Positions 3,454-33,311 of a stretch of 33,330 nucleotides of DNA are shown one piece after another. The translations under genes and the position numbers were made by a program. A model generated the notes under the pieces. It saw nothing but the letters and a program-made list of their open reading frames with translations. It was not told the DNA's origin and searched no databases. The stretch is from a virus. The stretch covers positions 1 to 33,330 of IMG/VR virus record IMGVR_UViG_3300021069_000006. One strand, 5' to 3'. Numbering within the stretch: the first letter of the stretch is position 1; each line of letters starts with the position of its first letter.

Positions 3454-3885
3454 TTATCCTAAATTAACAGCGATAGATACGAATTTTAAAGACATACCAT
3501 TAACCGTAGCATAATTCACACCAAAATCACTACATCCTACTACAACTTTATTAGGATGAGAATCATCATAAATAATGGCTGCTCCTGTATCGGCAATATC
3601 TCCACCGGATGCAAGCCATTCAGCATTTTGCCAAGTCATTATAGCTTTATCAGTGGTATTATTTTGAACAAGTTCGCCTGAAAGAAGGACTTGACCACCA
3701 GCCAAATATCCATTACCAACTGCAATTTCACCAGAACTTACAATTGACCAATATCCATGAATATCAGGATCAAAAGCAAATGAAGTGTTTACCAAAGCAA
3801 TCTTGAATGAATCAGTGTCCATGTCAATTTCTTTGTTCATTAAAGCACGTTTAAAATTATTACTGAGAGTATTTGCAATCGCCAT
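3454..3885 (-). CDS. Small virion (tail) protein of unknown role
   Basis: The product has 143 residues, with no signal peptide or membrane segment. It begins MAIANTLSNNFKRALMNKEI, followed by TDSFKIALVNTSFAFDPD and, near the middle, GNGYLAGGQVLLSG. I recall this layout (LSN.FK..L, then FK.AL..S.F..D, then GY.aGG..L) from small uncharacterised proteins beside tail genes in prophages, but I cannot name a characterised homologue. An AAAGGAG site lies 8 bases before the ATG. It sits between two other putative tail-tip genes with 5-12 base gaps, so it is surely part of the same transcript. A structural or minor tail role is an inference from position. Confidence 0.6.
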   Translation of the reverse strand: MAIANTLSNNFKRALMNKEIDMDTDSFKIALVNTSFAFDPDIHGYWSIVSSGEIAVGNGYLAGGQVLLSGELVQNNTTDKAIMTWQNAEWLASGGDIADTGAAIIYDDSHPNKVVVGCSDFGVNYATVNGMSLKFVSIAVNLG

Positions 3886-3897
3886 GATATTTCTCCT

Positions 3898-4863
3898 TTA
3901 AGCTGATTCACCAATTAAATTAACTGTCATTAAATTATTTGCTTGACTTACTGCTCCTGCTGGAACAGATTCTTTTACCCAAATTGATTTTGCTGCATGA
4001 ACTGTATTAAAAGTAATTACGTCTCCTGAAACCCAGGAACCTGCCCAACCTGCTTTATTCAAATTGAAATAATATCCAGTTGTGTTTACAGGAACAAAAT
4101 TTGAAGTAATAACTCCTGTTCCAATTGCTCCTGTAACTGCTCCTGTAACACCAAATGTGGTTGAATTTGTGAAAGTTAAAGTCCAACTTTCCGTTATCGT
4201 TCCTATATTATAAAGAGTTACAGGATAATTTGTTTCATCATAAGTTCCTGCACTGCTGATTTCAGACCAATTAGACAAAACTGGAGCAATATCACTCAAA
4301 GGAAGAATTGCACTTACTCTGGAAACATTTTGTAAAAAGGTTAATCCTGTTTCACCAGAAATAATACAAGTTGCGATGCTGCCATTCCATGTAGGAGTTC
4401 CAATAATTTCAACTTCTGATTGCTGTACGCCACTCGCCACGATTACAGAACAGCCAGAGGGTAATCCAGTGGGTTGTTTAAAGAGTACGTCAAAACTGCT
4501 CTCTGTAGGGCCAAAATTGGCATTCAAATAACCTGATCCATACCAATCTATGATGTCATCTGCTGAGGATTGATTATCTATGTCAGTTCCAGCAGCAATT
4601 TGGAAATAATCTTCACCAGATGAAACATTTGCAATATAAATTTTGGGATTTAATAATGCAAGATCATTTGGATTTTCATTCTTGATAAAGCATTTTCGAT
4701 ATAAATCAATTCCTGATTCACGTTCTGAAGACTGAATATTTCTGAACAAGTTATTCAGGGAACCATCAGTGATAAGGTTTGTACTTATCCTTCCTCCATT
4801 AGTCAAGGAGTCATTGACATAAATCGGTTTATAAAACTTGATCTGTTCACTTGTTATTGCCAT
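3898..4863 (-). CDS. Putative tail structural protein, unknown family
   Basis: The 321-residue product starts MAITSEQIKFYKPIYVND and continues with NGGRISTNLITDG and LFRNIQSSERESG. It then becomes Thr/Ser/Gly-rich and is predicted mostly beta from residue 80 onward. The first 70 residues resemble proteins next to tail genes of Mu-like prophages, from memory only. There is no enzyme motif. It lies 9 bases downstream of the tape measure stop, with an AAGGAG site before its ATG. In long-tailed phages this position is used by distal tail or baseplate-hub proteins, so a tail-tip component is likely. The specific function is unknown. Confidence 0.55.
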   Translation of the reverse strand: MAITSEQIKFYKPIYVNDSLTNGGRISTNLITDGSLNNLFRNIQSSERESGIDLYRKCFIKNENPNDLALLNPKIYIANVSSGEDYFQIAAGTDIDNQSSADDIIDWYGSGYLNANFGPTESSFDVLFKQPTGLPSGCSVIVASGVQQSEVEIIGTPTWNGSIATCIISGETGLTFLQNVSRVSAILPLSDIAPVLSNWSEISSAGTYDETNYPVTLYNIGTITESWTLTFTNSTTFGVTGAVTGAIGTGVITSNFVPVNTTGYYFNLNKAGWAGSWVSGDVITFNTVHAAKSIWVKESVPAGAVSQANNLMTVNLIGESA

Positions 4864-10800: not shown

Positions 10801-12882
10801 TTCTAAAGCACCAATTTGGTAAGATGTCATTGTTGATGTAAGAAGATCAACAGTCAATTCCATCTTCTCAAGAGTGCCTGTGGCAAGATTGGCAGCAGCT
10901 TTAATTGAACTTATAGACTCACTGACACTTAAACCAGCTTGGGCCATTATTTCAAGGCCTTTGCCTATTTGAGATGTGCTAAATACGGAACTGGATGCCA
11001 TATTTTTAATCATCTCAGACATTCCGCCCATTTCCGCAGAAGTTGCCCCTGTAATAGCTTTTAAACTATGCAAAGTCTGGTCGAATTCAACCGATGTTTG
11101 TATAGCTTCTTTTATGCTTTGAATAAATCCTGTAATCAGTAAAGAAGCAATTTGAAATTCAGCTAAGGTTCTTATCCTATTAACTAAATTATCAATAAAT
11201 CCTGCAAATATATTTATGAAACTTCCTGCTTCACCAAATACTTTGGCTGCTTCTGCCCATACCCTATTTGCTTCACTCTGAGCAGTTCCAGCCTCACTTG
11301 TAGCTCTGTAAACCCTTCCGTAAGCATTTACAAAGTTATCCGCGCCCTGTGTGGCTGATGATTGTGATGAATTTGTTTCCTGATAAGCAATCTGTAATTG
11401 TTTGGATGCTGAGACAAAAGCTGTTGTGGCTGAGGAACTTTGATTTATCGACGCTTCATAAGCCAATATATTCTGTGCAGTATTACTACTTTCGGTAGAG
11501 ATTCCATTAAGAATTGCAGGAACACTTCCTAAAGTTAAAGCAAAGTTTTCGCTGTTTTGTGTTATTTGTTTAATATAATCATCTAAATTTCCTATACTTT
11601 CTGCTGCAATAACATTTTGTTGTGTTAATAAAGTGTGTTGTTGTGTTAAAAGTTGTACATTTTGTGCGTATATTTCAATTGCATTTGCTATTGATGTTAT
11701 AGAGGATAAATTTAAATCTTGAGTTTCTATTGCTTTTAATAAAGCACTGGCATAACTACCACCATAAAGGTCAGTGAGTAATTGAAGTTTTTCTTTTAAA
11801 GTATCATATAGGGTTATTGATTCCTGTACACCTAATCTTTCAAGACTTCTATCCTGAGACATAGCCTGAATTGCAGGTCTATGTGTCGTTATAGCTCCAA
11901 TAACTTCCTGTAACTTGGATATACTTGAATCATACTCCCCATTTAAAACTTGAAGTGTTGTTGTTTCATCAAGGAGTTGTTTGGTTAATATTGCCTTATC
12001 AGCAGCTACTCTTGTTACTACAGCACTATTTTCCTTCTGATTTTCAATACTTTGTCGTTCTACTATTGATGCTGCTTGAAGTGCATCTTTTAATCTACCA
12101 ACATTGGTTAAATGTTCATATAAATTGGGTATCCCTTTTTGTATTGCTTCATTGTTTCCTGTATTTTCATTTAACCATTCATTTGTTGCTTTAGCTGCTG
12201 CTTTACTTTCTCTTGCTATGGACTTAATGAATTCTACTTGATTAAAAATCATTGTTCCAGCAGTCTTTACATTTTCACCTAAAGCAAGATACCCTTCTCG
12301 TATTGGTGTAATTTCTCCGCCCAATAACTGCAATGCTCTGTGCATTAATGTTGTGGAATCAGATGCCTCAGTTTGAGCAAGGGAATATATTTTTGCAGTT
12401 TCAGGAAAGGAGTTTAAATGATCACTGATTTGTATTATGGCTTGTGTGAAAGGAATTAATTTTGGGGAATTCTCTCCTACTTTATTACTCATGTCAATTA
12501 AGGATTGACATGCAGATTCCCCATAATTCTGAAGAACCATTAAACCTTGAGCTAAATTTGATGACTCAAGTCCTGCTTTAGTTAAATCAATTCCTAATAT
12601 TGAAGAGAAATTTGATAATTCCTCAATACTTGGTAGGACTAATCTTGCAGCACTGGCTATGTCTAATAACTTTTGTTCCCATAAACCAGTTGGAACTATT
12701 CCTGAAGTTATTGTGGCAATAAATTCTTTAAGAACAGCCGTAGGATTAACCAGTTGACTCATAGCACTGGCTGCACCTGCACCAAGTCTTGCAAAATCAG
12801 CAAGCATTTGATTAATACTGCGGGTGACATCTGATTCATCCGCAGTAAAAATAGTATTGAGGGTATTATCTTGATCAGCCAT
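4873..12882 (-). CDS. Tail tape measure protein (2669 aa)
   Basis: A giant protein that sets tail length and is packed in the tail tube. Residues about 590-830 match the TP901-type tape measure core (FDQTLHSLKAITGATSAEM to FELFGIRGAQVATIL). Hydrophobic helices lie at about 905-995 and 1110-1155, as expected for the segment that may enter the host membrane. Long charged coiled-coil regions rich in Lys, Glu and Ala fill about 1550-2480. The C-terminus carries the typical glycine-rich tape-measure ending (PGYGGGDIVNAKLEPGEFV, about 2570-2590). Three diverged copies of a repeat with the pattern AGxxIxxSxxxQxAASL lie near 1170, 1265 and 1525. By the usual rule of about 0.15 nm per residue the tail would be near 400 nm. 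It starts 9 bases after the frameshifted chaperone stop, with an AGGA site 11 bases upstream. Confidence 0.95.
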   Translation of the reverse strand: MADQDNTLNTIFTADESDVTRSINQMLADFARLGAGAASAMSQLVNPTAVLKEFIATITSGIVPTGLWEQKLLDIASAARLVLPSIEELSNFSSILGIDLTKAGLESSNLAQGLMVLQNYGESACQSLIDMSNKVGENSPKLIPFTQAIIQISDHLNSFPETAKIYSLAQTEASDSTTLMHRALQLLGGEITPIREGYLALGENVKTAGTMIFNQVEFIKSIARESKAAAKATNEWLNENTGNNEAIQKGIPNLYEHLTNVGRLKDALQAASIVERQSIENQKENSAVVTRVAADKAILTKQLLDETTTLQVLNGEYDSSISKLQEVIGAITTHRPAIQAMSQDRSLERLGVQESITLYDTLKEKLQLLTDLYGGSYASALLKAIETQDLNLSSITSIANAIEIYAQNVQLLTQQHTLLTQQNVIAAESIGNLDDYIKQITQNSENFALTLGSVPAILNGISTESSNTAQNILAYEASINQSSSATTAFVSASKQLQIAYQETNSSQSSATQGADNFVNAYGRVYRATSEAGTAQSEANRVWAEAAKVFGEAGSFINIFAGFIDNLVNRIRTLAEFQIASLLITGFIQSIKEAIQTSVEFDQTLHSLKAITGATSAEMGGMSEMIKNMASSSVFSTSQIGKGLEIMAQAGLSVSESISSIKAAANLATGTLEKMELTVDLLTSTMTSYQIGALEAGRVSDILAIAINDSKLSVDKLRTSLNYVGVIAAQSGLSLEQTSASLMILADRGMKASTIGTGLRQVLDKMIAPSEKLRDAYESSGIALNKISPLTVGYEGALRNLSMALYDTDTKTVDAAKAFELFGIRGAQVATILIQAYTSGEWNEAMSSFEKTGVAAEMSSEQLLGLSAMWDNLKAKVSVLLASLGEEGLTGVLKKITNALIWVVDAFQAFLNLDFGVFGTLFSVLTSVVGVLFSMNTFLALSPILLNGVKAGFAILLGTLDAFLTKLGAIVILLNDNAYVAFATVVLVIVAALKAWDSHLVKAIEKHYELANAANQASDVLTLFKGKLEATTEGSKEHEIMVKRLISEYPELAKELAKNAGVVDILYLSYSELVNEMEKLRQVKLAEAIRESIGALVDLTTQSNAVTDTLQALKTILSGIVWFVVTAFKQIGEAIATILHPIAIIINALAKLFETTDNTTKKMQESIERIAEAFVKAGQDINKSTEEQRATSLEKLNEEMKNGKLTQEVYEDIYKAINDSYDKIEKRLEATRKFNEDSIKNTNDVRDAIVSMADAYIKAGEAIGKSTEEQNAASLKKAKEDLKNGEITKETYRQMTIEINNHYKSISESSTESTSILKQNLNEVSTSSSKSTSDIKQNLNELGTAQEETIQKSGEVVTQVTGSAMSFWEWATTSGLNYMGIFLTGTAHAADEVTNTVGDIEKEFSSFDAFLTTINPFKYLTNWAQGLPLVTKEVDRFVTETIASVGALTDTLVFHYDWAHFKQVTKDMLSWTWSIFTGMGSAVLDWTTTSGLHFVRWMANLPPIIEGAQKLAEAYINAGRDITQSIANQEAASLKALEAEKKKGEMSRTIYNDSKDGIKSYYAEITELTNKFVEMNDLKGQQLSYNETVSINQRVAAHKIAIDKMTAEELQAIAIYKESHYSKVRSNSQNEGEIYKIHLDYNLKKIDLLSSYAKELADAETKKNELNKETEDQIFEREKKAINDKLAYLDSELTKEREALSSFAKWKILWSISTEEGISAKIKEINLARSEEEKKLLTLNKEYEQDVINIKLQKNQEYTDKLMVNLADLLTTYKTNAATELSLLTNFNDEKIKLLQTEASVAVRVAEERLAAYRLYVKEMVDSGKDITGMAEQEKELIDAVTKSRTDAINQQLAQGKILLTESNKIYDQQLAYLKTITQQEQELLNQKYTDKTTKSKAAFDAEMALIDAEKLNAIDMLAKKSAATSVYQDSALQMAEKHFLDELEINERDFNETMRLTNLKLGIETTYNQNLKDLAKGTFDFQQSNQVELFANLTEQGNNSVTTVKNYLQVAQALYETQVEAIKKTYDADVANANKSFEEKQTALLNFSTRKNNTVLEDVTFGGVALVKETADLCAALDERKLSTAKFYDGTYVLITQDVINNKDALTKITDALKVELTTQTEAARAEYTTRITDIKKNIDEQIITFKILTSKTDEELMAQNASWTIFEGKKYEIVSGTYEQIRELVQNSSKEEQATFAETEKKLLESYANREKAYTDLMTAQKAQLAAYEKENNESMVRIAELEKSKIAMSDTIAEAIRKNNQSIMTSQKKLDDDLLNVDNLYYQARDTLIKEDFSKFLAAIQALPAESKRADGSTYKSTKEMMDLKNDLFNKGGELFKKIIDDEIAKNKESIESNKKKFDDLQLSINELEKRLTGLKDLELQIKTKPVIDAVTGVVNELEKIVKKVDEIKNGKGLEIDDTRIRETIDKLLVEFQTKFTKAKPEVTVSFTGNIFGKEAKSITPISETIQTINGELANIGVAKPPSATVGFWGKIGETIADFATTIGNIIASINSIERTVTVTVQYVEVGRPADSGSSESAGARTGGYISSRVGGFIQKLKTGGTFSGQLPGYGGGDIVNAKLEPGEFVLRKEAVKQIGVNALRQWNNLNSSAGKSLNVQETKNTTESLFSGQLHTINLNVGDRIHRVYGESNVLNDLTSSMRRMRLMTA

Positions 12883-16438: not shown

Positions 16439-16838
16439 CACATTTCCTTTGGGAAAAAACCCAACCATCAAGTAATACTTCCATCCTGACAGGAGGTATT
16501 GGATAAAGATGATCTTTGTCGAGTCTTACTTCCTTCCTAAACATCCTGGGACATATTGTAACTTTTGTATCATAATCCATTTTATAGAAAGAAAATACAT
16601 CATAATTTTCACATTTACTTCCTATAAGCATGGATGATAACAAATTAGGTTCAATGTATTCGTCATCATAAAAAACAACAAACCATTCTGTCTTTATCTT
16701 TTCGTAAACTATATCCCCAAGTTTGTCAATGAAAATAATTTCTTTTAAATCAACATCCTCATGTCTGAATGATCTGGATGTTTTTGCACAATTGGCAATG
16801 GGATTACCAGATTTCTTGATAAACAAGGTTAATTCCAT
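16431..16838 (-). CDS. Short GT-A glycosyltransferase-like protein
   Basis: Residues 35-70 of this 135-residue protein (LKEIIFIDKLGD, then TEWFVVFYDDEYIEPNLL) look like the nucleotide-sugar and metal-binding part of a GT2-type enzyme. DDE at 58-60 stands where the DxD motif would be. A normal GT2 domain needs about 220 residues, so this is a minimal or truncated form lacking much of the acceptor half. It could be a helper subunit, a remnant, or an enzyme with a minimal fold. AAGGAG precedes the ATG, which lies within the end of the radical SAM gene (10-base overlap). It is the last gene of the glycan block before neck genes resume. Confidence 0.55.
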   Translation of the reverse strand: MELTLFIKKSGNPIANCAKTSRSFRHEDVDLKEIIFIDKLGDIVYEKIKTEWFVVFYDDEYIEPNLLSSMLIGSKCENYDVFSFYKMDYDTKVTICPRMFRKEVRLDKDHLYPIPPVRMEVLLDGWVFSQRKCDE

Positions 16839-18034
16839 TGTTTGTACTCCTTTTCCAATTGGTCTCTATAATAAATTATTTGTTCTGAAGAAAGGTCTTT
16901 TGTCCTCACTGTTGAAGAATACTCTCCAGGAATACCTCGATACCACATAGGATCAGAATTATAATCAAATGTTATTCCGTATTTATTAGGATTATTGAAA
17001 ATAGGTGATCCTGGTAATGGTTGAAAAATGGCAACGGATATATCATCTGGTTTTGCTTGTTTGATCCATTCTTCAGTTTCTTGAACTGTATCCTTTGTTT
17101 CGCCAGGAAGTCCTACAATAAGAAAAGCCTTTGATCTGATACCATGTTTTCGTAAATTGGTTACTGCTATTGTATTCACAACATTTGTGCTTTGTTTCAT
17201 ATTCAATTTAAGTATTTTATTGGAACCACTCTCAACACCTATTCCTACATCAGTTACTCCCATCTTTGCAAGATTTTCACATACTTTATTATCACCCAAA
17301 AGGTCAGCACGACAAAAACATCTGAATTTATAATCTCGTACTTGCAATCTTTCAGCCAAAGCATTTAATCTGCTTTTATCAATTGCAATGGTGTCATCAT
17401 AAATTGAAAATGCTTTATACCCATATTTTTCTTCCAGATATTCCAATTCAAGGATAGTTCTATCAGCATTTTGAATAGAAAATTTCTTGCTTATTTTTGC
17501 GCAGAATGAACAGGAAAAGGAGCAACCCCGTGAAGCAATGATTGGTGTGGATTGTCTTCCTTCTATTTCCTGATAATATTTCTTGATAGGAAGAGCATCT
17601 CTATCAGGAAATGGTGTATGAGGATTTTCCAAAGTACCATGTATTATGGAATCATTAGTATATTTTTTCTTTAATAAATATTGTGTTAATGGTATTTCTC
17701 CATATCCTTTTATTACAACATCAATACCATTTTCCAGACATTCAAGTTTTTTATGTGTGGGATGTACTCCACCAGCTATGACGGTTTTGCCAATGCTTTT
17801 ATAGAAAGCAGCCAGTTTATATGCTTCTTCACGTTGCGGAGTCGTAAAGGACAAACCAATAATGTCAGATTTGGCCATTTCAGGAGTATGTCCTTCCAGA
17901 GCCATATCAAGACATTGTGCTTTTAATCCATATATCTTCAAATAAGCACTTAAATACATTACTCCTAAAGGAGGAAACATTGTCTGATCTATTAAAAAAG
18001 GACTTGAAGGAACAACCAGTGTTATATCAATCAT
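16829..18034 (-). CDS. B12-binding-type radical SAM enzyme
   Basis: The start chosen is the ATG at 18034, which overlaps the methyltransferase stop (ATGA) and has GGGAGG four bases upstream; a longer frame upstream lies inside the methyltransferase gene. The product has 401 residues. Residues 1-150 look like a cobalamin-binding domain (PPLGVMYLSAYL near 21-32, VIAGGVHPTH near 85-94). Residues 160-370 form a radical SAM barrel with CSFSCSFC at 171-178, the CxxxCxxC that holds the 4Fe-4S cluster. Further barrel motifs are GIGVESGS and GLPGETKDTVQET. The family includes methylases of unreactive carbon and magnesium-protoporphyrin cyclase relatives. The DxHxxG cobalamin-ligating motif is absent (DMALEGH instead), as in many methylases of this class. 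In this block a sugar or peptide C-methylation is plausible but inferred. Confidence 0.85.
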   Translation of the reverse strand: MIDITLVVPSSPFLIDQTMFPPLGVMYLSAYLKIYGLKAQCLDMALEGHTPEMAKSDIIGLSFTTPQREEAYKLAAFYKSIGKTVIAGGVHPTHKKLECLENGIDVVIKGYGEIPLTQYLLKKKYTNDSIIHGTLENPHTPFPDRDALPIKKYYQEIEGRQSTPIIASRGCSFSCSFCAKISKKFSIQNADRTILELEYLEEKYGYKAFSIYDDTIAIDKSRLNALAERLQVRDYKFRCFCRADLLGDNKVCENLAKMGVTDVGIGVESGSNKILKLNMKQSTNVVNTIAVTNLRKHGIRSKAFLIVGLPGETKDTVQETEEWIKQAKPDDISVAIFQPLPGSPIFNNPNKYGITFDYNSDPMWYRGIPGEYSSTVRTKDLSSEQIIYYRDQLEKEYKQWN

Positions 18035-18582
18035 TTTCCCTCCCAAATAGGAAGTTGCCAAAAATCTTTTCTTCGTTTTTCTACCCACACAAATGATCCT
18101 ACCTGACCGTCCATGTGATGAAAAATCTTGTTTACACCTTCTGTTACTTCATGAAATCCATATCCATAGTCATGAAAACAGAATATTCCTCCCATCTTTA
18201 GAATATCCCACCAACAGAATATGTCACAGATAACTCCTTTATATGTGTGCATGGCATCAATAAATACCAGATCAACTGATTCAGGTTTAAAGGAGTCAAC
18301 TATATGAACAGAACTGCCAACGTGAGGATATACAGGAAGTCCTTTAGTGTTTTCAATGAATTCTTCCAAAACAGTGAAATGATCTTCCTGACTTTGACCA
18401 TCACCTATATTGGTTCTGAAATAATCAACACAATGAACTTCCTCGGCAACTGCTCCCATACACACTGCTGATCTGCCTTTAAAACTACCTACTTCCACAC
18501 AAACCTTATCAACAGCCAATTCTTGAAGTTTTGCTCCTTCATCTGGCTCAAACCATCCGGTAACTTCCAGCCATTTATTCAT
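18031..18582 (-). CDS. Class I SAM-dependent methyltransferase (Methyltransf_24-like)
   Basis: I prefer the ATG at 18582, which overlaps the stop of the upstream gene as ATGA. An ATG at 18597 would add five residues, and neither start has a strong Shine-Dalgarno site. The 183-residue product has motif I VCVEVGSFKGRSAV (27-40), an acidic strand end CVDYF, and VDLVFIDAMHTYKGVICDI near 103-121, followed by GGIFCFHDYG. These features match the Methyltransf_24 group, which often sits in polysaccharide and antibiotic-sugar clusters and O-methylates sugars. Translation is coupled at both ends to radical SAM genes. The acceptor is unknown. Confidence 0.85.
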   Translation of the reverse strand: MNKWLEVTGWFEPDEGAKLQELAVDKVCVEVGSFKGRSAVCMGAVAEEVHCVDYFRTNIGDGQSQEDHFTVLEEFIENTKGLPVYPHVGSSVHIVDSFKPESVDLVFIDAMHTYKGVICDIFCWWDILKMGGIFCFHDYGYGFHEVTEGVNKIFHHMDGQVGSFVWVEKRRKDFWQLPIWEGK

Positions 18583-19292
18583 TGTGATTTTATCCATTCA
18601 TCCATAGGTATTCCCCATCCAATGTGAGGACATCGTTGACAAGTATCTGTATTTCTGATTCCATTACGAAGATCATCACAAATTTTCATACGATAATCTG
18701 ATTTAATTACTTCATGAAAAGTAATTTTATTCAAATCAGCAATAATATTCCTATATTCATAATCCATACAACAATAAACCAATTCTCCACGGTGATTGAT
18801 CATAGTATAAATTGAAGGAGCGGCACATGGCCCTTTTGCAGTTGTAGGACAACTATAAATTTTCTTTCTTGAATCCAAAGCAATTCTTTGAACATTAAGT
18901 CCTGATATTTTTCTAAGACGTTTTTCCTCAGAATCAGAATAAACTGATACTGTCCATCCAATTCTACCAGGGCCAATATTACTTATTTCTTTATAAAGAT
19001 ACTCATTCAAATACCATCCATTCGTAAATATTTGAATATCAGCTTGAGTATTCAGCATTACACGTTCACACAACCAACAAAATCTTGGGTCAATCAATGG
19101 TTCATTATAAATATTGAAATAAAAATTACCTTTCCAATCCATTATTCCCATTTGAATGATAACATCAAGTATGATCTTTGTTGGTAAAAATATAGGATCA
19201 GCTTTTGCATCAGTTGGACATTCAGGATGAATTGCTGACATATTACATCTATTTGATAATTCAAAAGCAATATTCTCTGGAAGATGTTTCAT
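18579..19292 (-). CDS. Radical SAM/SPASM-like protein with altered Fe-S motif
   Basis: Two adjacent ATGs exist. I choose the second (19292), with AAGGA six bases upstream; the first overlaps the GT2 stop as ATGA. Of 237 residues, the N-terminus reads IAFELSNRCNMSAIHPECP. The usual CxxxCxxC is replaced: C16 is present, the second position is Ala20 and the third is Pro23, with Cys25 just beyond (CX8C). The rest follows the radical SAM barrel (GNFYFNIYNEPLID, then IQIFTNGWYLN). The C-terminal third is rich in cysteines (CPTT, GPCAAP, YCCMDYEY, TCQRCPHIGW), as in SPASM auxiliary cluster domains. It is either a variant radical SAM enzyme or one that has lost canonical cluster binding. Its substrate is unknown. 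Confidence 0.75.
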   Translation of the reverse strand: MKHLPENIAFELSNRCNMSAIHPECPTDAKADPIFLPTKIILDVIIQMGIMDWKGNFYFNIYNEPLIDPRFCWLCERVMLNTQADIQIFTNGWYLNEYLYKEISNIGPGRIGWTVSVYSDSEEKRLRKISGLNVQRIALDSRKKIYSCPTTAKGPCAAPSIYTMINHRGELVYCCMDYEYRNIIADLNKITFHEVIKSDYRMKICDDLRNGIRNTDTCQRCPHIGWGIPMDEWIKSQ

Positions 19293-20035
19293 CATCTATC
19301 CTTCCAATAATCAGAATTTACTGCTTCAGCGTATTCTGCCTTAATTTGAAAATCATAAAGATCAGAAGGAAGACCAAGAGCTTTTCTTGTTGCCAAAGGA
19401 CGTAACCATCTACGTTCAATCCAATCACGATCTCTGGAATCATCTTTGGCAAAATGTTCTATGTAAATTTCTTCATGTGGTGGAATATTGTGAATTTTTT
19501 CGTATCCCATAGGAACTCTGTGAGGGCTTTGAACCCAGTGAAGTTTGTGGGATTTTCGGAATAATCTTGGTTGGTAATCAGGATATTGTCCAATTTGATG
19601 ACTTTCCATAGGCCATCCTTTTTCATCCAATTGTGCAAAAGGACTTCCTTCATATCGAAAACACTCAGTTGTTATTCTTGGAATATGAACAAGGTCAGCA
19701 CCTTCAGGAAGTTTATTTGTTTTATCCACTTCTGAAAGGAATTCTTTTAATTTAGGACTCATTCGTTCATCAAAATCCAAAGAAAAGAAAATTGACCCAT
19801 GAGGAACATAGGACATCATGATATTTGCTTGTGAAATCTCAGCATCATGATACCAAGGAAGATATTCATGAATAAAAACTTCCACTTTTGGAAACTGTTT
19901 TAATTCTTGGACAGTAAAATCACTACTCCTACCATCAATCACTCTGATTTTCTCTACCCAGGATTCATCGTGGAAATCAGACAAACAGCGTTTCACAGAA
20001 TGTTGTTCATTAAGACATTTCATCGTAACGTACAT
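19292..20035 (-). CDS. GT2-family glycosyltransferase
   Basis: The 247-residue product begins MYVTMKCLNEQHSVKRCLS, the typical nucleotide-binding start of a GT2 (GT-A fold) enzyme with N-E at the beta1 end. It continues with VIDGRSSDFT at 32-41 and a DxD-type motif FFSLDFDER at 83-91 that binds the metal and nucleotide-sugar. The second half has aromatic and histidine-rich strands (YQPRLFRKSHKLHWV, then VPMGYEKI) usual in the acceptor half. AGGAG lies 7 bases upstream. It overlaps the following radical SAM gene. Donor and acceptor cannot be told. Transfer to a virion protein or a cell-envelope glycan are both possible. Confidence 0.85.
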   Translation of the reverse strand: MYVTMKCLNEQHSVKRCLSDFHDESWVEKIRVIDGRSSDFTVQELKQFPKVEVFIHEYLPWYHDAEISQANIMMSYVPHGSIFFSLDFDERMSPKLKEFLSEVDKTNKLPEGADLVHIPRITTECFRYEGSPFAQLDEKGWPMESHQIGQYPDYQPRLFRKSHKLHWVQSPHRVPMGYEKIHNIPPHEEIYIEHFAKDDSRDRDWIERRWLRPLATRKALGLPSDLYDFQIKAEYAEAVNSDYWKDR

Positions 20036-20049
20036 GATTGAACTCCTTT

Positions 20050-20211
20050 TTATTCGTTTAAGGATTTAAAGAAATGCCAAACAGCACATTCATCCTTTTT
20101 ACAAAGTCTATCGGTTACTACACAAAATTCCTCATTCCAAGGGCAATATAAAGAAATTCTCTTGAATCTTTCATCCTCAATTCTTATGTAATCCTTCTTT
20201 TGTTCGGTCAT
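20050..20211 (-). CDS. Small Cys-rich protein, 53 aa
   Basis: Starts at an ATG that overlaps the stop of the GT4-GT9 gene (ATGA) and ends with TAA 14 bases before the GT2 gene. The product begins MTEQKKDYIRIEDERFKRI and has four cysteines in the pattern CPWNEEFC, then LCKKDECAVWHFF. Such spacing could hold a zinc ion. It fills the only gap in the glycan block, and the coupling at its start argues that it is translated. No family is recognised. A small partner of one of the enzymes is one possibility. Confidence 0.6.
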   Translation of the reverse strand: MTEQKKDYIRIEDERFKRISLYCPWNEEFCVVTDRLCKKDECAVWHFFKSLNE

Positions 20212-22235
20212 GTCATTAATTCTCCCAATATTTTAATGAGTATTTCTTTAATTTTTAAAGGATTAATGGTGTTAATACAGGGACTTAAACAGTTTGTGTT
20301 TTGTCCATGACAATTAGTTAAGGATGCACATACATCAAGTTTATTTGGTTCAAGATTATACCAAGGTTGATTTCCATGCACAGGGCCAACTACACGGGCG
20401 GGTGCGGGGCCATACAGAACAATGCAAGGGGTGTTTACTGCTCCAGCAAGGTGGCTTGGAAAGGAATCAACAACAATAGCTGCTGTTGCTTTTTTCATCA
20501 CCCACGCCATTTCAATAAAAGAAAGAATTCCTCTTAAATCAATTGCTCCTGGACAATATAAATCTGTCTTTAATCCTATTTGAATTACTGGAAGTTTTAA
20601 TCCTTTAATCACAATTCCCATGTGATTATAGGTTCTGTATTTAGGATCACCACCTGTTGTGTGAACCACTATGTATGGTTTGTTCTCAGTATGGACAAAG
20701 AAATCGTCAGGTTGTTCACAATCAATAAAGAAATCTCCTGGTTCAACTTTGCAGAAATAAGGATACATATCTGCAAGTTTTACATCCAGATTATTAAATC
20801 CACCTTTAAGAATATGTTCACCATGAGGATTATATACGAATTGATATTTTGTTCTTAATTCAGGATTCCAATCAAGTATTTTGGCAATATCATAATTATT
20901 TTCCAAAATTCCATGAAACTTTTCCTGAGTCATATAATCGAGAGGCAAATTTCCATGTTTAAGTCTGATATTTTTCAAACATCTGGTAGTCATCAGAACA
21001 TCACCAGCGGAAGAATGCTGAATAAACAAAATTCTCTCTTTCTTATGCTCTGAGACGACTTCTAAGCGTTCTTTAAGAAAAGGTAATACATCGGTGTACC
21101 CCTTTGACCACTCTTGAATAGCTGCTGCTCCAATTGCAGACAAACCCTTAAAGGATTCGATGTGTGAGACCATGCCAGCCATCTCAAAAGCAATATCATC
21201 TGGAGTACAGCATTTTGCATCAATCCAAGTTTGTCCTTGTGAAGTTTGAATTGGAATATAGGAAGGAGAATTACATTCAACTTTATTTCCCCCTACAAGT
21301 TCAATCAATTCTTTATGTGCTGTTGAATCAGATGCTATTACAGGAACTCCACAAAGCATTGCTTGTATTGTAGTCCAAGACAGTCCTTCCTGCAGGGAGC
21401 AATTTATAAAACAATCTAAGGAATTATAAATATCAGGCATTTTTTCAAATGGAGAATATGATCCTTCTGGTTTCACAAGAAGGCTTCCCGAATCAAGCCC
21501 ACACATTATTGCATATTTTTGAAGATTATAGACACCATCCTTAAAATTTGTGTGCATATAAAGAACAATTCTTTTATCGGTATAGTTTCTGATTAAGGAA
21601 AATGCTTTGATAATCTTCTGCGGGTCTTTTCTGATTTGATTTGGGCCAATAAATCCAAAAACAAAAGTATCAGGAGAGATTGTTGGAAACAGTATTGATC
21701 TTGCTTCTTGACGTTTTTCTTCTGAATATGGAAAGAATAATTCCTTTTGTGGCATATCTGGTCTGAAATATCTCAAATTAGGAACATGATCTTTCAACAT
21801 ATCAAATCCATATTGAGAATATACAAAAGGCATATCAATCAAATTTGCATATTGAACAGATTCTTTATCCAGGAATTGAAAATCATAAGGAAAAAGGTGA
21901 ATTATTTTGAATTTCTGTTTTTGTTGAATCTGTTTAACATATTGAATTATATCAATATATCTCCAAATATCAATACCAACAAAGATAACAAAGTTGAATT
22001 CATTATTGTCGAGGATATGAAGAAGTTTTTGTCTTCCCCAAAAATCTTGGGTTTTTAAATCATCGGAAGGAATTATATTATATGGATTTATTTCAAATGG
22101 AGCTATGGGGATATTTACTGAAGGGCAAAAAACTGCTAATTCGTGATCATGAATCTGATCTATAATACTTTTCATCATGAGAGAATTGCCTGAAAAACCA
22201 TTAGGATTCTCACCAACAAGTAATACTTTATTCAT
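20208..22235 (-). CDS. Fused GT4-GT9 glycosyltransferase
   Basis: Two GT-B enzymes are joined in 675 residues. Residues 1-390 form a GT4-type domain: VLLVGENPNGFSGNS at the start, FGFIGPNQIRKDPQKIIKAF near 193, and EGLSWTTIQAMLCGVPVIASD near 285, where the second Glu of the usual EX7E is Gln. Residues about 395-675 form a GT9 (heptosyltransferase-like) domain: RILFIQHSSAGDVLMTTRCL, then VVHTTGGDPKYRTYN, then VDSFPSHLAGAVNTPCIVLYG. A C-terminal cysteine cluster (C...NC...NCLSPC) follows, as in many GT9 enzymes. Such fusions would let two sugars be added in sequence. A good AAGGA site precedes the ATG. It is the first gene of the block, 31 bases after a head-completion gene. Confidence 0.85.
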   Translation of the reverse strand: MNKVLLVGENPNGFSGNSLMMKSIIDQIHDHELAVFCPSVNIPIAPFEINPYNIIPSDDLKTQDFWGRQKLLHILDNNEFNFVIFVGIDIWRYIDIIQYVKQIQQKQKFKIIHLFPYDFQFLDKESVQYANLIDMPFVYSQYGFDMLKDHVPNLRYFRPDMPQKELFFPYSEEKRQEARSILFPTISPDTFVFGFIGPNQIRKDPQKIIKAFSLIRNYTDKRIVLYMHTNFKDGVYNLQKYAIMCGLDSGSLLVKPEGSYSPFEKMPDIYNSLDCFINCSLQEGLSWTTIQAMLCGVPVIASDSTAHKELIELVGGNKVECNSPSYIPIQTSQGQTWIDAKCCTPDDIAFEMAGMVSHIESFKGLSAIGAAAIQEWSKGYTDVLPFLKERLEVVSEHKKERILFIQHSSAGDVLMTTRCLKNIRLKHGNLPLDYMTQEKFHGILENNYDIAKILDWNPELRTKYQFVYNPHGEHILKGGFNNLDVKLADMYPYFCKVEPGDFFIDCEQPDDFFVHTENKPYIVVHTTGGDPKYRTYNHMGIVIKGLKLPVIQIGLKTDLYCPGAIDLRGILSFIEMAWVMKKATAAIVVDSFPSHLAGAVNTPCIVLYGPAPARVVGPVHGNQPWYNLEPNKLDVCASLTNCHGQNTNCLSPCINTINPLKIKEILIKILGELMT

Positions 22236-26781: not shown

Positions 26782-28455
26782 TTAAGCAGATTTATTTCCT
26801 TTGTCAACAACTTTTTTTACAGTTAATTTTTTTTTCTTTTTTTCAACAGCATTTTGTGTTGGTTTTTCAAGTGATTTTTCTTGATTAACTTCTTGAGGAT
26901 TTGCCCCCATTGCTGCGGCATCTGACTCTATCACAAGTTCTGGATACCTTTCATCCTCAGAGGCTTTAATAAGTCTCATCCTACCATATCCACTTATTCC
27001 CATTTTCTTGGCAATATATGAATTTGGTATTCCTAAAGATTCACTCATGTTTCCATGTTTAACTCCAAGGAAGGCTCTTGCCTGGGCCTCGGTATCACTT
27101 GTTTCAGAAACAGGATATGAAATATCAATAAGGAACTCTGGTTTTCTTGGTATTTTTTTAAATATTGGTTCCTGACTTTCATTAAATCCTACTGCTTCAT
27201 TTACTTTAAAAGTTGCAGGAAATCCAGTTATCTTATTTTTCAGATAAAATATTGCAGACCAGAGATCATATTTCAGGAAACGATCAAAATAAGCGATCTC
27301 ATCAGATGTTCTATCTGTCATGGGGCCACGGCTTGCCTTAACCGATGCAAATGTACCCTTAGAAGAGCCTGTGAGCACGTCAGACGGCTCGTTAAGACCG
27401 GAGGCTACCATCTCCATGATGTCTGTGTCGGCATTGCTTATATTGGGCAAATTGGGCGTAATTGCAACAACCTTGATTCCTGGAGGAATTACAAGAGTTC
27501 CTCCAGGAGTTTTCTTTGCCATTATTCCTGTTTTTGCTCTTTGTTCTGGTGTCAGTGCAAGCCAAAGTTTAAATGTTCGAGGGTCTTCAATCTGGAACAC
27601 CCAAAGGTAACTTCCAGATGATCTCTTATGATCTATCTCATATTTCTTCAAGTTCTCATAGTGGTTTAACCATTCAAGTGTTGTTCTCAGGTATGAGACA
27701 GCCCTTCGGGTCATAAAACCTTTGTCCCAAGCAACAATGAATTTGTAATAATAACCTAATTGCTTCCAAGGGTTTCTTTTTGTTTTTCGGCTGTTGGTTT
27801 GCAGTTCAAAAGATATGCCTTGTAAATTTGGTATTTCAGCAAGTTCAGGGAATCTCGCAATATTAATTGAAGGAATTTGCTCAGTTTGTTGATCATAATT
27901 TTGTATTTTATTGTTAGAAACATTATAAAACAAAGGAAACAAGGGTTTAGAAGGATGGAAAATAATACCCGAACCATCATCACCTCCACCTGTCACAGTA
28001 GAAGGATCAATGAAATCAATTTCAATAAACCCATCTTCATGACAAGTTAAGCAAAGAAACAATTCACCTTCTATATTGCTCCTTGCTACGAATTTTGGAA
28101 AGTAATTGTAAAGTCTGTTTCTTGGATCATATTCTATTTCTCGAATTACTTCATTGATTTCGTGAATTTCAGAACTGGTTTCAAAACCCATTCCTGTGAG
28201 TCTGCCCATAAGACCACGAACAGAAGTATTTATTTGAGGATTTTTGTGGAATTTTTCCCAACAATGTTTTTGGAGTTCTTCACGGGAGAATTGTTCTGAG
28301 GCTATTTCTGAATAGGAAGTAAATCCATCAGGATCAACAGATTCACCATTAAATGTTTCTACTTGCCAAGGCATTGAGAACTTCATGCCCCGTAACTCAT
28401 CATCATTCAGTTTTTTGAAGTAATCATCATTTAACTCAGGAAGTGTTGATTTCAT
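26782..28455 (-). CDS. Portal protein
   Basis: I use the ATG at 28455, which has AGGTG nine bases upstream; a GTG at 28467 lies within that signal. The 557-residue product shows FVARSNIEGELFLCL near residue 125 and, near 375, GLNEPSDVLTGSSKGTFAS, with SASRGPM-like residues nearby, a typical portal core. The C-terminus is low-complexity and Lys-rich (VEKKKKKLTVKKV) and is coded by long A runs, which could allow slippage. The portal forms the dodecameric ring through which DNA is packed. Location after the terminase and before the protease is standard. The gene starts just after the putative non-coding RNA. Confidence 0.9.
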   Translation of the reverse strand: MKSTLPELNDDYFKKLNDDELRGMKFSMPWQVETFNGESVDPDGFTSYSEIASEQFSREELQKHCWEKFHKNPQINTSVRGLMGRLTGMGFETSSEIHEINEVIREIEYDPRNRLYNYFPKFVARSNIEGELFLCLTCHEDGFIEIDFIDPSTVTGGGDDGSGIIFHPSKPLFPLFYNVSNNKIQNYDQQTEQIPSINIARFPELAEIPNLQGISFELQTNSRKTKRNPWKQLGYYYKFIVAWDKGFMTRRAVSYLRTTLEWLNHYENLKKYEIDHKRSSGSYLWVFQIEDPRTFKLWLALTPEQRAKTGIMAKKTPGGTLVIPPGIKVVAITPNLPNISNADTDIMEMVASGLNEPSDVLTGSSKGTFASVKASRGPMTDRTSDEIAYFDRFLKYDLWSAIFYLKNKITGFPATFKVNEAVGFNESQEPIFKKIPRKPEFLIDISYPVSETSDTEAQARAFLGVKHGNMSESLGIPNSYIAKKMGISGYGRMRLIKASEDERYPELVIESDAAAMGANPQEVNQEKSLEKPTQNAVEKKKKKLTVKKVVDKGNKSA

Positions 28456-28564
28456 TATAATTTTCACCTATATATAAAACTACTAAAAAAAGAATAAAAT
28501 TCAGGCGTTGAGTTCTGCTGGTTGGAGGTTGGAAGACTTGGATTAGAAATCTTTTTATTTTTAA
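28456..28564 (-). other. Spacer between the putative RNA and portal gene
   Basis: AT-rich leader of the portal gene. It contains the tandem words GGTTGGA GGTTGGA (plus strand, near 28520-28532) and the portal Shine-Dalgarno site at its left end. No gene is seen in it. Confidence 0.4.
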
Positions 28565-29160
28565 AATATTTTAATATATATATCAGGATGAATTAGAACT
28601 TGATACAAATATTAAAATCATTAAAACCAACAAAATCCTACCGCACAACATTCAACATCTTATTATCGCTTTACCAGTGCACCTTGTGTCGTCCAGCTTT
28701 CGCTTATGGACTGTGGAGGCCAACCCACTCTGCTCCCTCTATACTGGCGGAAGGACACCACCTGAATTCCCATGAGTTTGTTAAGCTGTTAGGATTTCAG
28801 GCCCAACTTATTCGCATTTTTTAGCACTGTATATTCCATAATCAGTAATGAATCAATATTTCTGCTATGGAAGACCGCCTGATCGTAGTCCGGTCAAATA
28901 AGACTTACTAACTTCTGTACTGTTACATGGCTATCGACCAGTAAGGCACAGATGAAGAGACTTTGTGAATTTATTATTCCTGAGAATAAAGTAAACTTTG
29001 TAAAATCTCTTCTTTGTCCTGAAAAGAAAAGAAACTTCGTAGAACTACACCTACTATCTCTTTTCTTTTTAAAACAAAGAGATTAATTCCGACGTCTGAA
29101 AATTAACCCACCCATTGTGCTTCGGCGTGTACGGAGCCTGTGTAAATTAACGTACACCTT
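28565..29160 (-). ncRNA. Putative large structured non-coding RNA (about 600 nt)
   Basis: The gap between terminase and portal has no coding frame of note, and its middle is less AT-rich than the flanks. A near-consensus promoter sits just upstream. Perfect complementary pairs I can see (plus coordinates) are 29127-29133/29151-29157, 29056-29063/29076-29083, 28954-28960/29006-29012, 28974-28979/28984-28989, 28873-28877/28891-28895, 28834-28840/28866-28872, 28796-28801/28761-28766, 28754-28758/28686-28690, 28736-28739/28716-28719 and 28707-28711/28691-28695; the last is capped by a GAAA (GNRA) tetraloop. A pair 28674-28678/28743-28747 would cross the 28686-28690 helix and form a pseudoknot. 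Size, phage setting and ornate fold recall the ROOL and GOLLD RNA classes, but I cannot assign a class. The ends are estimated from the promoter and a final long hairpin. Confidence 0.65.
28569..28617 (-). terminator. Long AT-rich hairpin at the 3' end of the putative RNA
   Basis: 28569-28585 and 28601-28617 pair over 17 bp with one mismatch and one G-U. The tract after it on the minus strand (TATTTTAAAAA) holds only a short U run. It may end or protect the RNA 3' end. Read-through into the portal would still be needed if no other promoter exists. Confidence 0.35.
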
Positions 29161-29166
29161 AAAATG

Positions 29167-29195
29167 ACTATACATACGGTTTTACGAGTTGTCAA
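29167..29195 (-). promoter_or_regulatory. Near-consensus sigma-70-type promoter after the terminase gene
   Basis: The minus strand has TTGACA at 29195-29190, a 17-base spacer, then TATAGT at 29172-29167. The -35 is perfect and the -10 has five of six consensus bases. Transcription would start near 29160, just before the first helix of the putative RNA. The promoter begins 3 bases after the terminase stop. Confidence 0.8.
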
Positions 29196-29198
29196 GAG

Positions 29199-31124
29199 TT
29201 ATTTGTAATTTCCGATGAGATTCTTCGCTCCTTGGAACAACCCAAAGCTCTGACCAGTCAAATCTCTTGATCTGAAGTCAGAAGCAGTCAATAAACGTCC
29301 TCCAAATATGCACCAGATACTTGCAAAAACACAGTCATCCTGAATACCTCTGACTTCCATTTTCTCTGAGGAACCAAACCATTTAGAATCCGGGTCATGA
29401 TCAAAATTTAATAATTCCTCACGATAAATATCTCGATTCTTCGATCCTGAAATATAAATCTCAGGACTTTTCAGTCTTCCCTCTTTAATTGCATTGTAAT
29501 ACTCCTTAAATGCTTCTCTTTGTCTTTCATAATTAGGAAACACTGGTTCAAATCCAATATTTTTCTCTTCAGACCATTTACCCATATCCCAAATACCGTA
29601 TCTTTCTGAACAAAGAGTATCAATTCCTGAATATTCACTATCTATTTCTTCAAGGATGTCTTTAATATTGTCAATTGAATTTTTCTCAGCAACATTTAAA
29701 GACAAAAGAAAGTAAATATACTTGGGAGAAAGACTGTCTGCTGAATATGGATTGTCTCTGCTACCGATCAAACCCTTTGCAAAGGCCACCACGATTGATC
29801 TTGCTTTACCCTTGATAGAATATGGGTCGGCCATGTCAATACCTGTGAGGATGCTCCAATCTGTATTAAACTTGTTGCCAATTTCAATTAATTTATGGTT
29901 CAACATCTTTGCATTTCCACCATAAGTGTCTTTCAACGAATACAAGGAATCAATTTTTTGCAATCTTTCAGATAAATTTGAATATTTTTCCAATAGGATT
30001 GGTTTGTTTTTCTGTCCATCCATTAATTGACGCTTAGTTAAATCCTCAATAGTTTCTTCAACTTTAATCCTATCCAAAAGGATTTCAGAAGTAGTCTCAT
30101 GATTCAGGATATATCCATCACTTCCAATCAATCCTATTTCCTCAATCATCTCCTTGGAAAAGACTTTTACGTTTCCTGAATTCCATTTATTCAGGAAGTA
30201 TCTTTCAAAATCACCAGCAGGAAACTTTGTTTCGTAATCCTTTAGTTGATCCAAATCCATATTAGGGTTCCAGTAATCCTCAAGATCACCTCTTCTGGAT
30301 GATCTATAAGAGAAAAACACAGTCTTACTTTTTCCTGAAATAAAATTTGAATAAAGTTTGTAAAGTATGTGATCTTTTGCAGATACAGTAGAATCAATAA
30401 CTCCCATAGCATTGGGAATAGTTCTGATTGATCCATCAAGTTGAACAAAGAATTTAGGATTCTTCATATCGAATATTTCTGAGAACGTATATCCTGTAAT
30501 ATTTGAAACAATACCAGAGAAGGATGAAATTGATCGAATAATTGATTTAACATTTCCTGCTGAATCAACCAACCTGATTTCCTTCTCCTGTAAATTTCTA
30601 TCACCACCAATCATATTATGCAAATGTGGAGAATTCAGGATAATATCTCGGATAATATCATAGTGAACAAATTTAGTTTGATCCTTACTATTCGCTCCTA
30701 ACATAATCTGCTGTCTTGGCCAGTTAAAAAACTTCCATAATTGAACCAGACAAGCAAGGAGTGATTTACCGTCACCACGAGGCCAGCAAAAAACAATAAG
30801 ACGATAAAGGAATCTATTGTTCTTCATCTGTAATGCTTCACGAAGAACATCACATTGTTTCTCCCACATTTCCTTAGAAGAACGATTAGTCTTAGGATTA
30901 ACAACATCAGACAAAGCTCCTAATCGAACCCAGGTAGCCATATCATCACCCTCAGCATAAACAGGAACATGAACAAAATCATTACACCATTTGATCATTC
31001 CTTCAGCACCATCTTTGTAATTCTTAGGAATATACCTTTTCACATTAACAGGAAGTTTATCCTTAGCCTCAGACTTCTTTGCTCTCTGCTCCAGATTGAA
31101 CTGATTCCTACGTTTAACTCTCAT
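29199..31124 (-). CDS. Terminase large subunit (TerL)
   Basis: The 641-residue product has a packaging ATPase half with Walker A WPRGDGKS at 114-121. A region near 210-220 (NITGYTFSEIFDM) stands where Walker B is expected, with Glu216 as likely catalytic residue but without the usual Asp before it. The nuclease half (about 400-620) shows DWSILTGIDMADPYS, an acidic strand start, then YSGIDTLCSERYGIWDMGKW, and near the end RGIQDDCVFASIW with the final acidic residues. TerL drives DNA into the prohead and cuts it. The ATG directly follows the stop of the small membrane protein gene (TAAATG). The upstream GGAAGA is a modest Shine-Dalgarno site. Confidence 0.92.
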   Translation of the reverse strand: MRVKRRNQFNLEQRAKKSEAKDKLPVNVKRYIPKNYKDGAEGMIKWCNDFVHVPVYAEGDDMATWVRLGALSDVVNPKTNRSSKEMWEKQCDVLREALQMKNNRFLYRLIVFCWPRGDGKSLLACLVQLWKFFNWPRQQIMLGANSKDQTKFVHYDIIRDIILNSPHLHNMIGGDRNLQEKEIRLVDSAGNVKSIIRSISSFSGIVSNITGYTFSEIFDMKNPKFFVQLDGSIRTIPNAMGVIDSTVSAKDHILYKLYSNFISGKSKTVFFSYRSSRRGDLEDYWNPNMDLDQLKDYETKFPAGDFERYFLNKWNSGNVKVFSKEMIEEIGLIGSDGYILNHETTSEILLDRIKVEETIEDLTKRQLMDGQKNKPILLEKYSNLSERLQKIDSLYSLKDTYGGNAKMLNHKLIEIGNKFNTDWSILTGIDMADPYSIKGKARSIVVAFAKGLIGSRDNPYSADSLSPKYIYFLLSLNVAEKNSIDNIKDILEEIDSEYSGIDTLCSERYGIWDMGKWSEEKNIGFEPVFPNYERQREAFKEYYNAIKEGRLKSPEIYISGSKNRDIYREELLNFDHDPDSKWFGSSEKMEVRGIQDDCVFASIWCIFGGRLLTASDFRSRDLTGQSFGLFQGAKNLIGNYK

Positions 31125-32258: not shown

Positions 32259-32323
32259 TTTTTACATTCACAAAAAAACAAAGTCAAGCAGTAAAATTAA
32301 ATCAGAATCCAAGGATAAGTCAA
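32259..32323 (-). promoter_or_regulatory. Candidate promoters of the late operon
   Basis: Two possible sigma-70-type promoters read toward the first gene. One has TTGACT at 32323-32318, a 16-base spacer and TTTAAT at 32301-32296. The second has TTGACT at 32287-32282, a 17-base spacer and TAAAAA at 32264-32259. AT-rich DNA makes chance matches common, so only one, or neither, may be used. Confidence 0.4.
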
Positions 32324-32337
32324 TAAATCAATCCTAT

Positions 32338-32445
32338 AAGCCGAAATAAAACAGGATGAAATAATTCAGCAAATAAATCAATCCTACAGGACAGATTAAG
32401 CCAAAATAAAACAGGATGAAATAATTCAGCAAATAAATCAATCCT
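32338..32445. repeat. Two 48-bp direct repeats with a 60-bp period
   Basis: Positions 32338-32385 and 32398-32445 are identical except for one base (AAGCCG versus AAGCCA at the start). A partial third copy of the last 14 bases lies at 32322-32335. Each copy contains ACAGGATGAAATAATTCAGC and ends in AATCAATCCT. They lie just upstream of the candidate operon promoters, so operator or replication roles are possible. Confidence 0.85.
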
Positions 32446-32645
32446 GAAATTTAAAATAAAAACAATCCTAAACAATTTACAGGAGTTCAATAAAACAAAG
32501 AAGATAATGAGATAGGATGAGTTAATTTGACAGGAAATAAAATTTAAGTAAAAATCTCAGGATGAATGTAAAGAAAATACAATAAAATCAACAGGATGAT
32601 TTTTCCGTACCGTATATGAAGATAACACAAAAATGACATAAGATA
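32446..32645. other. AT-rich non-coding stretch without a gene
   Basis: No open frame with a start signal is seen. The word AGGAT/ATCCT recurs several times, as in the flanking repeats. No other structure is evident. Confidence 0.4.
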
Positions 32646-32850
32646 AAAAAGTTAAATCCTACCAGATTTAGGATAAAATTATGCTTTGCATTAATCCTTA
32701 TAAAAAGTTAAATCCTACCAGATTTAGGATAAAAATTATGCTTCCTATAAAAAGTTAAATCCTACCAGATTTAGGATAAAAATTATGCTTTGCACCAGAT
32801 TTAGGATAAAAATTATGCTTTGCACCAGATTTAGGATAAAAATTATGCTT
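32646..32850. repeat. Five direct repeats with internal dyads (iteron-like)
   Basis: The unit ACCAGATTTAGGATAAAA followed by (A)TTATGCTT starts at 32661, 32717, 32764, 32794 and 32824, with spacings of 56, 47, 30 and 30 bases. The first three copies are preceded by AAAAAGTTAAATCCT, so each contains a dyad ATCCTA-N7-TAGGAT; the last two lack the left arm. Such arrays serve as iterons at replication origins or as operator clusters. No adjacent replication gene is in view. Confidence 0.85.
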
Positions 32851-32910
32851 GGTACCCGTTATTGAATACAACACGGGATGGGATCAGATGAAACAAGGGG
32901 GGAGATTAAT

Positions 32911-33311
32911 TTATCTTATCTTATACTTTGTTATGCTTATCTTATACTTTGTTATACTTTGTTATGCTGTGCTGTGCTTATCTTATACTTTGTTATGCTT
33001 ATCTTATCTTATGCTGTGCTTATCTTATCTTATACTTTGTTATGCTGTGCTGATGTTATGTTATGCTGTGCTGTGCTTATGCTGTGCTTATGCTGTGCTG
33101 ATGTTATGTTATGCTGTGCTTATCTTATCTTATACTTTGTTATGCTGTGCTGTGCTTATGTTATGCTGTGCTGTGCTGTGCTGTGCTGTGCTTATGTTAT
33201 GCTGTGCTGTGCTGTGCTGTGCTGTGCTGTGCTGTGCTGTGCTTATGTTATGCTGTGCTGTGCTGTGCTGTGCTGTGCTTATGTTATGCTGTGCTGTGCT
33301 TATGTTATGCT
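32911..33311. repeat. Degenerate 5/6-bp satellite array
   Basis: About 400 bases consist almost entirely of short words: TTATC, TGTGC (as GCTGT), TTATGC, and TTATAC followed by TTTG. The plus strand is T-rich and A-poor. The right half is mostly GCTGT runs broken by GCTTAT and GTTATG. Two forward frames stay open and give monotonous Cys/Leu/Tyr/Ala translations, which I regard as non-coding. The word TTATGCTT also ends each of the five repeats just upstream, so the array may have grown from that sequence. No other gene is seen from 32851 to 33330. Confidence 0.85.

Follow-up and report, generated by a model that had tools for sequence, protein, structure and literature searches.

What occupies the gap between the terminase and portal genes in the 33,330-base virus record IMGVR_UViG_3300021069_000006, the whole of which was analysed here and is referred to as the window, and what might it do at the head of a set of virion genes? 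On the minus strand, which carries all the features of this locus, the gene for the terminase large subunit (29199..31124; phrog_9 match, E 5e-12) ends in a stop codon at 29199-29201, and the portal gene, identified as lambda-family through a weak Pfam match, occupies 26782..28467 with a likely ATG at 28455. An earlier note, made from the sequence of the window, had placed between them a large structured RNA of about 600 bases with its own strong promoter, made apart from the operon and belonging either to a known class of ornate RNA or to a new one. The promoter is where that note put it, with a -35 box TTGACA (29190..29195) starting 3 bases past the terminase stop and a 17-base spacer leading to a -10 box TATAGT (29167..29172), and this TTGACA-17-TATAGT is the sole promoter-like site on the minus strand within 28300-29300. 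The region was also rightly described as having no gene, as no ORF is conserved in the terminase-portal gap and those that occur differ between homologues in frame and sequence. The entire structured RNA is about 676 nt long and runs from its predicted AAGG start to the end of a U-tract (28485..29160), filling the gap downstream of the promoter and upstream of the portal ribosome-binding site.

A terminase search returned 80 relatives. In four of them, labelled L001-L004, with terminases 73-81% identical, the gap to the portal measures about 580-820 bases, whereas most other relatives, with terminases 58% or less identical, have a leader of 35-170 bases and no such RNA. L092, with a portal 90% identical, and the 3′ fragment L093 came from pattern scans and a search with the portal, and a final terminase-alignment search added L122, with 67% identity in the terminase and 71% in the portal. 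Removal of near-copies left six distinct full-length RNAs (window, L001, L092, L002, L004 and L122), all from uncultured tailed phages and essentially from one sequence collection; the lengths are about 676 nt in the window, 608 in L001, 623 in L092, 590 in L002 and 746 in L004. The flanking genes are terminase and portal each time, and the portal adjoins the RNA in every homologue. Pattern-scan matches beyond this clade (L088, L089, L091 and L104-L114) were rejected as chance matches in apparently coding DNA. Searches of INPHARED found no cultured relative, blastn giving only weak matches and tblastn no match for the terminase. In other relatives (L043, L067, L037, L048, L053 and L062) the terminase-portal gap is an insertion hotspot for unrelated ORFs, read by eye as AP2/HNH-like endonucleases in L043 and L067 and as methyltransferase-like in L037, with a JAB-like protein, also by eye, as a further type.

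Elsewhere in the window, a cassette between the head and tail genes (16829-22235, minus strand) encodes a B12-binding radical SAM protein, a methyltransferase, a SPASM protein, an unassigned 247-aa protein that is glycosyltransferase-like by eye, and a 675-aa glycosyltransferase of group 1 and heptosyltransferase family 9; it may serve to modify sugars on the host surface and points tentatively to a Gram-negative host. Also on the minus strand are a 2669-aa predicted tape-measure-like protein (4873-12882) and a 458-aa protein built of ITASASTGG..SPSGS repeats that weakly matches the InlB repeat (2072-3448). The very end of the record (32900-33311) holds a long array of degenerate TTATGCTGTGCTG-type repeats with periods of 5, 21, 31 and 41 bases. 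It could represent the end of a genome, a regulatory region or an artefact of assembly. Several further short tandem repeats are found at 32322-32850.

The homologues share a common fold of about ten helices, two of which, PK1 and K, are pseudoknots. At the 5′ end, hairpin P1 (29127..29157; GUGUACG/CGUACAC) keeps all 7 of its pairs in each of the six homologues, with double changes at 6 pairs, and its loop holds one half of PK1, in which UACA.CA.GGCU (29135..29144) pairs with AGCC.A.UGUA (28924..28932); PK1 forms 8 of 8 pairs in all six, again with double changes at 6, these counts and those for K being descriptive because the strands were picked by eye and bulged bases left out. Helix H (28943..29122; AAGCACA/UGUGC(C)UU) closes a length-variable, non-conserved domain that includes a long A/U-rich hairpin at about 29005-29082. 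It is irregular, mostly of 5-7 pairs, perfect in L122 (AAGUUC/GAACUU) and weaker in L002 and L092, and is on the whole weaker than the other helices. Helix A joins GUCUUAUU (28897..28904) to AAUAAGAU (28657..28664) through 7-9 pairs in all six sequences, with double changes at most pairs. Crossing it is the second pseudoknot, K, in which UCAGGCG (28876..28882) pairs with CGCCUGA (28501..28507) in a conserved 3′ island (CCAGCAGAA..CGCCUGAAUUUU); all 7 pairs form in five homologues and 6 of 7 in L002, which has one mismatch, and double changes occur at two of the seven positions (A-U/G-C and U-A/A-U). Because this island pairs back with 28876-28882, the RNA extends to 28485, and the boundary at 28565 proposed in the earlier note falls about 80 bases short. 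Where that note had seen one possible pseudoknot, two supported ones are found.

Within the region spanned by helix A, hairpin B (28834..28872) has double changes at 4 of its 7 pairs, and helix C joins CAGUGC (28824..28829) to GCACUG (28675..28680) with hardly any variation, CAGUUC/GAACUG in L001 being a compensatory change. Hairpin D (28761..28801) shows double changes at 5 of 6 pairs, and in L004 its loop carries an insert of about 130 nt. Hairpin E (28734..28755), of the form UCCUUC CGCCAGUAUA GAGGGA, is the most conserved island and is paired in all six sequences; it is not proven by covariation because its variation is one-sided only. A pairing between the hairpin E loop and UUACUGG was rejected, being broken in L092 and in L004 by changes that are not compensated. 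Hairpin F (28713..28728), with a palindromic GGCC in its loop, has double changes at 2 of 4 pairs and is absent from L122. The GAAA-capped hairpin of the earlier note is real: it is hairpin G (28691..28711), whose segments G1 and G2 covary in five homologues, as in the compensatory change between AGC/GCU and GAC/GUC. In L122 hairpin G is short (AUCC/GGAU) and lacks the tetraloop, and the GAAA cap is therefore not essential to the family.

Complementary pairs can also arise by chance in ordinary intergenic A/T-rich DNA, and for this locus such an explanation could point to the A/T-rich composition of the region and to a free-energy excess that is modest on its own. The minimum free energy lies below that of dinucleotide shuffles, z being -2.75 for the region and -4.65 when all 676 nt are folded, and ranging from -2.5 to -5.2 across four homologues. 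It is covariation that carries the finding, folding energy alone being weak evidence. In the 3′ domain (28649-28911), for which eight helix segments were defined (A-G2), 99.0% of base-pair cells are paired across five sequences and two-sided changes occur at 19 of 42 pairs, values that 0 of 500 shuffles reach, and sliding the partners by 1-3 columns lowers pairing to 38-50%. With six sequences, 98.7% of the base-pair cells of the 264-position domain are paired and 20 of the 42 pairs show compensatory changes, against 37-49% paired in the slid controls and 0 of 500 shuffles reaching most measures, these figures coming from a covariance-model alignment that leans to the model. The sixth sequence, L122, came from the search with the terminase, independently of its RNA, yet it fits the five-sequence covariance model at 126.6 bits (E=7e-36) and brings new compensations in P1 (GCAUACG/CGUAUGC), PK1, A (AAUCUGUAC/GUACGGAUU) and K (ACGGGCG/CGCCCGU), and it is the nearest to an independent test of P1, PK1 and K. 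Covariation above shuffles and slid controls, together with this out-of-sample fit, refutes the explanation by chance, which keeps practically no probability. The earlier note had staked its claim on helix covariation among homologues, and the outcome is decisively in its favour; that this is a real, conserved and new structured RNA can be regarded as close to certain.

The question then becomes whether this RNA belongs to a class already described. When all 4227 Rfam families were searched by covariance model, none reached its gathering score in the window or in ten related loci. Relaxing the threshold to E<=10 for the RNA region (HEARO, OLE and raiA included) and to E<=3 for four homologue loci brought up nothing credible. 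Weak matches of miRNA families to the long A/U hairpin were dismissed as composition noise. The ROOL model (RF03087; gathering score 99.1 bits) has no match in the window at E<=10, and as a positive control it scores 130.4 bits on the ROOL already known from L. salivarius pMP118. Like ROOL, which measures 574-659 nt, the phage RNA is of similar length, is carried by phages or prophages, contains multiple pseudoknots and has a non-conserved linker region. In ROOL, however, a long stem closes the 5′ and 3′ ends, whereas here the 5′ end forms hairpin P1 and the 3′ island pairs with the middle; this missing stem and the null result with RF03087 exclude ROOL identity. ROOL is also often, though not obligatorily, near tRNA genes, and ARAGORN found none in the 33-kb window. 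GOLLD, which like ROOL counts among the nanocage RNAs that assemble as homo-oligomers, is likewise a large, phage-borne, ornate RNA, but its model has no match in the window or homologues (a known-member control having been run for ROOL only) and there are no tRNA neighbours here. The resemblance to ROOL and GOLLD is thus one of size, carriers and ornateness, and not of topology or sequence (PMC12286853). OLE, too, is an ornate RNA of about 600 nt, but it is cellular and protein-binding and gives no Rfam match here; it undergoes kissing of palindromic loops (PMC12286853), which the conserved GGCC of loop F resembles, as a resemblance only, loop F being missing in L122. Of the two possibilities left by the earlier note, membership of ROOL, GOLLD, HEARO, OLE or another Rfam class has not stood, and novelty has: judged by these model searches, the RNA belongs to a separate, new family of large structured phage RNAs, non-coding and 590-746 nt in length where measured.

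The same searches bear on the idea that the element is a self-splicing intron, or what is left of a mobile element that entered the leader. The gap does take insertions in relatives (L043, L067 and L037), and the window contains an HNH_3 gene elsewhere. The intron models for groups I and II nevertheless gave no match at E<=10 in the region or at E<=3 in the four homologues, so that the hit which the earlier note named as counting against its proposal is absent. The order of helices (A5′, K5′, B, C[D-G], A3′, K3′) differs from that in a group I core, and the element never interrupts a gene and was found in one place in one clade, all of which makes such an origin very improbable.

The earlier note is also borne out in placing a strong promoter at the 5′ end of the RNA, since in the window, L001, L092, L002 and L004 the start AAGG (AAGA in L004) lies 6-7 bases past the -10 box, and the predicted 5′ end coincides with the expected transcription start of TTGACA-17-TATAGT. 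The promoter, though, is not confined to phages with the RNA. An exact TTGACA occurs in 29 of 46 gaps of RNA-less relatives against 1.8 expected from dinucleotide shuffles, and TTGAC[AT] in 40 of the 46 against 3.6, with TTGACA usually 5-35 bases past the terminase stop. As it stands at the same place in most relatives without the RNA, the promoter predates the RNA and is that of the portal operon. In five homologues the stretch from the RNA core to the portal contains no good second promoter, and the promoter at the RNA 5′ end is common to the RNA and the portal operon. The RNA is therefore predicted to be the first thing transcribed from the operon promoter, and the proposal that it is made apart from the operon has to be given up.

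In a quick portal tree built before L122 was found, the carriers of the RNA form one clade with support of 100, for which a single gain is the simplest account. A covariance-model search of 85 loci and 50 virus records found no copy elsewhere, many of these records being fragments in which absence is not proof. The promoter is thus ancestral to the phage group, and the RNA arose within the leader of the portal operon, probably in a single gain. Two RNA-less relatives, L063 and L015, have in this gap a pair of TTGACA promoters separated by a terminator-like hairpin, an arrangement from which a short non-coding transcript may arise at the same place.

At the other end of the RNA, the U-tract AUUUUAUUCUUUUUUU (28485..28500) directly follows the K helix and is a possible terminator. 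It has 7 U in 8 in five homologues and is weaker in L122. The K helix and U-tract together are arranged like an intrinsic terminator with a 5′ arm about 370 nt upstream, and no local terminator hairpin was found at the RNA 3′ end. T-rich tracts occur in the leaders of RNA-less relatives too. Release of the RNA may occur by termination at the U-tract once the closing pseudoknot helix has formed. In another member of the group, L074, the leader (3529-4018) contains a small zinc-finger-like ORF and a terminator-like hairpin with a T-run just before the portal, suggesting control of transcription into the portal in other members also.

What such an RNA would do can be read in more than one way. 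The reading that we place first, with about an even chance of being right, is of a discrete late RNA made from the structural-gene promoter that is set free and acts in trans through its shape. The RNA would be the first and most abundant product of that promoter and would end at the U-tract beside the K helix, coupling the complete fold to release; it would accumulate in free form late in infection and act in trans as ROOL- and GOLLD-type RNAs are thought to, and the virion genes would be expressed from transcripts that read through the RNA end. This is consistent with a predicted 5′ end exactly at the promoter start site in five homologues, with a conserved 3′ island whose pairing crosses helix A and which the U-tract immediately follows, and with covariation above controls, the fit of L122 and the lack of a conserved ORF. 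The core is fixed and its arms vary freely, as in the H domain and the loop D insert of L004, from which we infer a closer likeness to large trans-acting RNAs than to small leader sensors. Sister phages, moreover, dispense with it. Precedents exist in phage ICP1, whose most abundant transcript is a non-coding RNA of about 800 nt beside the lysis cluster, and in GOLLD RNA, which accumulates during lytic growth in one prophage (PMC7567579). The ICP1 RNA, likened here by description alone, is similar in size, neighbours a late cluster and comes from a phage without tRNAs, but belongs to another phage group and has other neighbouring genes. Against a discrete trans-acting RNA are the unusual terminator, with its distant 5′ arm and no local hairpin, the T-rich tracts of RNA-less leaders, the weak U-tract of L122, and a location in an operon leader that suits a cis-acting element equally well.

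Such a cis-acting element would be a conditional terminator or antiterminator in the leader of the structural operon, which we consider possible without favouring it. Here the K helix and U-tract would end transcripts about 30 nt short of the portal start codon, except when a phage protein, a ligand or a modified polymerase changed the fold, and the virion genes would in this way be turned on late. In outline this would be like lambda pR′-6S RNA-tR′ or an attenuator, with an RNA far larger. Lambda 6S RNA is 194 nt; it and its pR′ leader share with the phage RNA a non-coding transcript running from a late promoter to the first late genes with a possible terminator before them, but the covarying fold with two pseudoknots sets the phage RNA apart, and no Q-like factor was identified. 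The ancestral operon promoter, the abutment of the U-tract on the K helix and the position of the RNA between the same two genes in all homologues found favour control in cis, and since no other promoter is seen between the RNA and the portal, transcripts from the operon promoter must cross the RNA. Yet sister phages run the operon with a leader of 35-170 nt and no such element, and an RNA of about 600 nt with two pseudoknots would far exceed the known leader regulators in size. The putative terminator has no local hairpin, and no alternative antiterminator pairing is kept in all homologues; a local GACCG/CGGUC hairpin, an alternative to the possible terminator helix K, is present in the window and in L001 and L092, but its failure in L002 and in L004 led to its rejection. 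The strongest version, in which an RNA of about 600 nt with a double pseudoknot gates the whole virion-structure operon and its finished fold is the terminator just before the portal, seems doubtful; if true, the RNA would stand out by its exceptional size among phage switches that act in cis on late genes.

The position between the terminase and portal genes also brings to mind a packaging RNA, a part of the motor that binds portal or terminase. The phi29 packaging motor contains such an RNA, the pRNA of about 174 nt, and the two are alike in being phage RNAs in a packaging gene context. The pRNA, however, is about a quarter of the length and is required in phi29, whereas close relatives of the window phage do without the RNA, none being seen in relatives with homologous terminase and portal, many of whose records are fragments. 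As there is no Rfam match and the gene neighbourhood is the sole argument, a packaging role is scarcely to be expected and, like an intron, is unlikely. The discrete trans-acting RNA stays in first place, with control in cis as its main rival.

Very large structured phage RNAs are few, comprising ROOL, GOLLD and some unnamed examples, and their roles are not established. To these the new family adds a supported fold, a defined position heading a virion-structure operon, and sister phages that lack the RNA. With this natural pair of presence and absence, and a position from which two contrasting predictions follow, a free late RNA or an operon gate, the role of such RNAs can be put to the test. 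The finding also shows that phage families outside culture carry large RNAs absent from Rfam.
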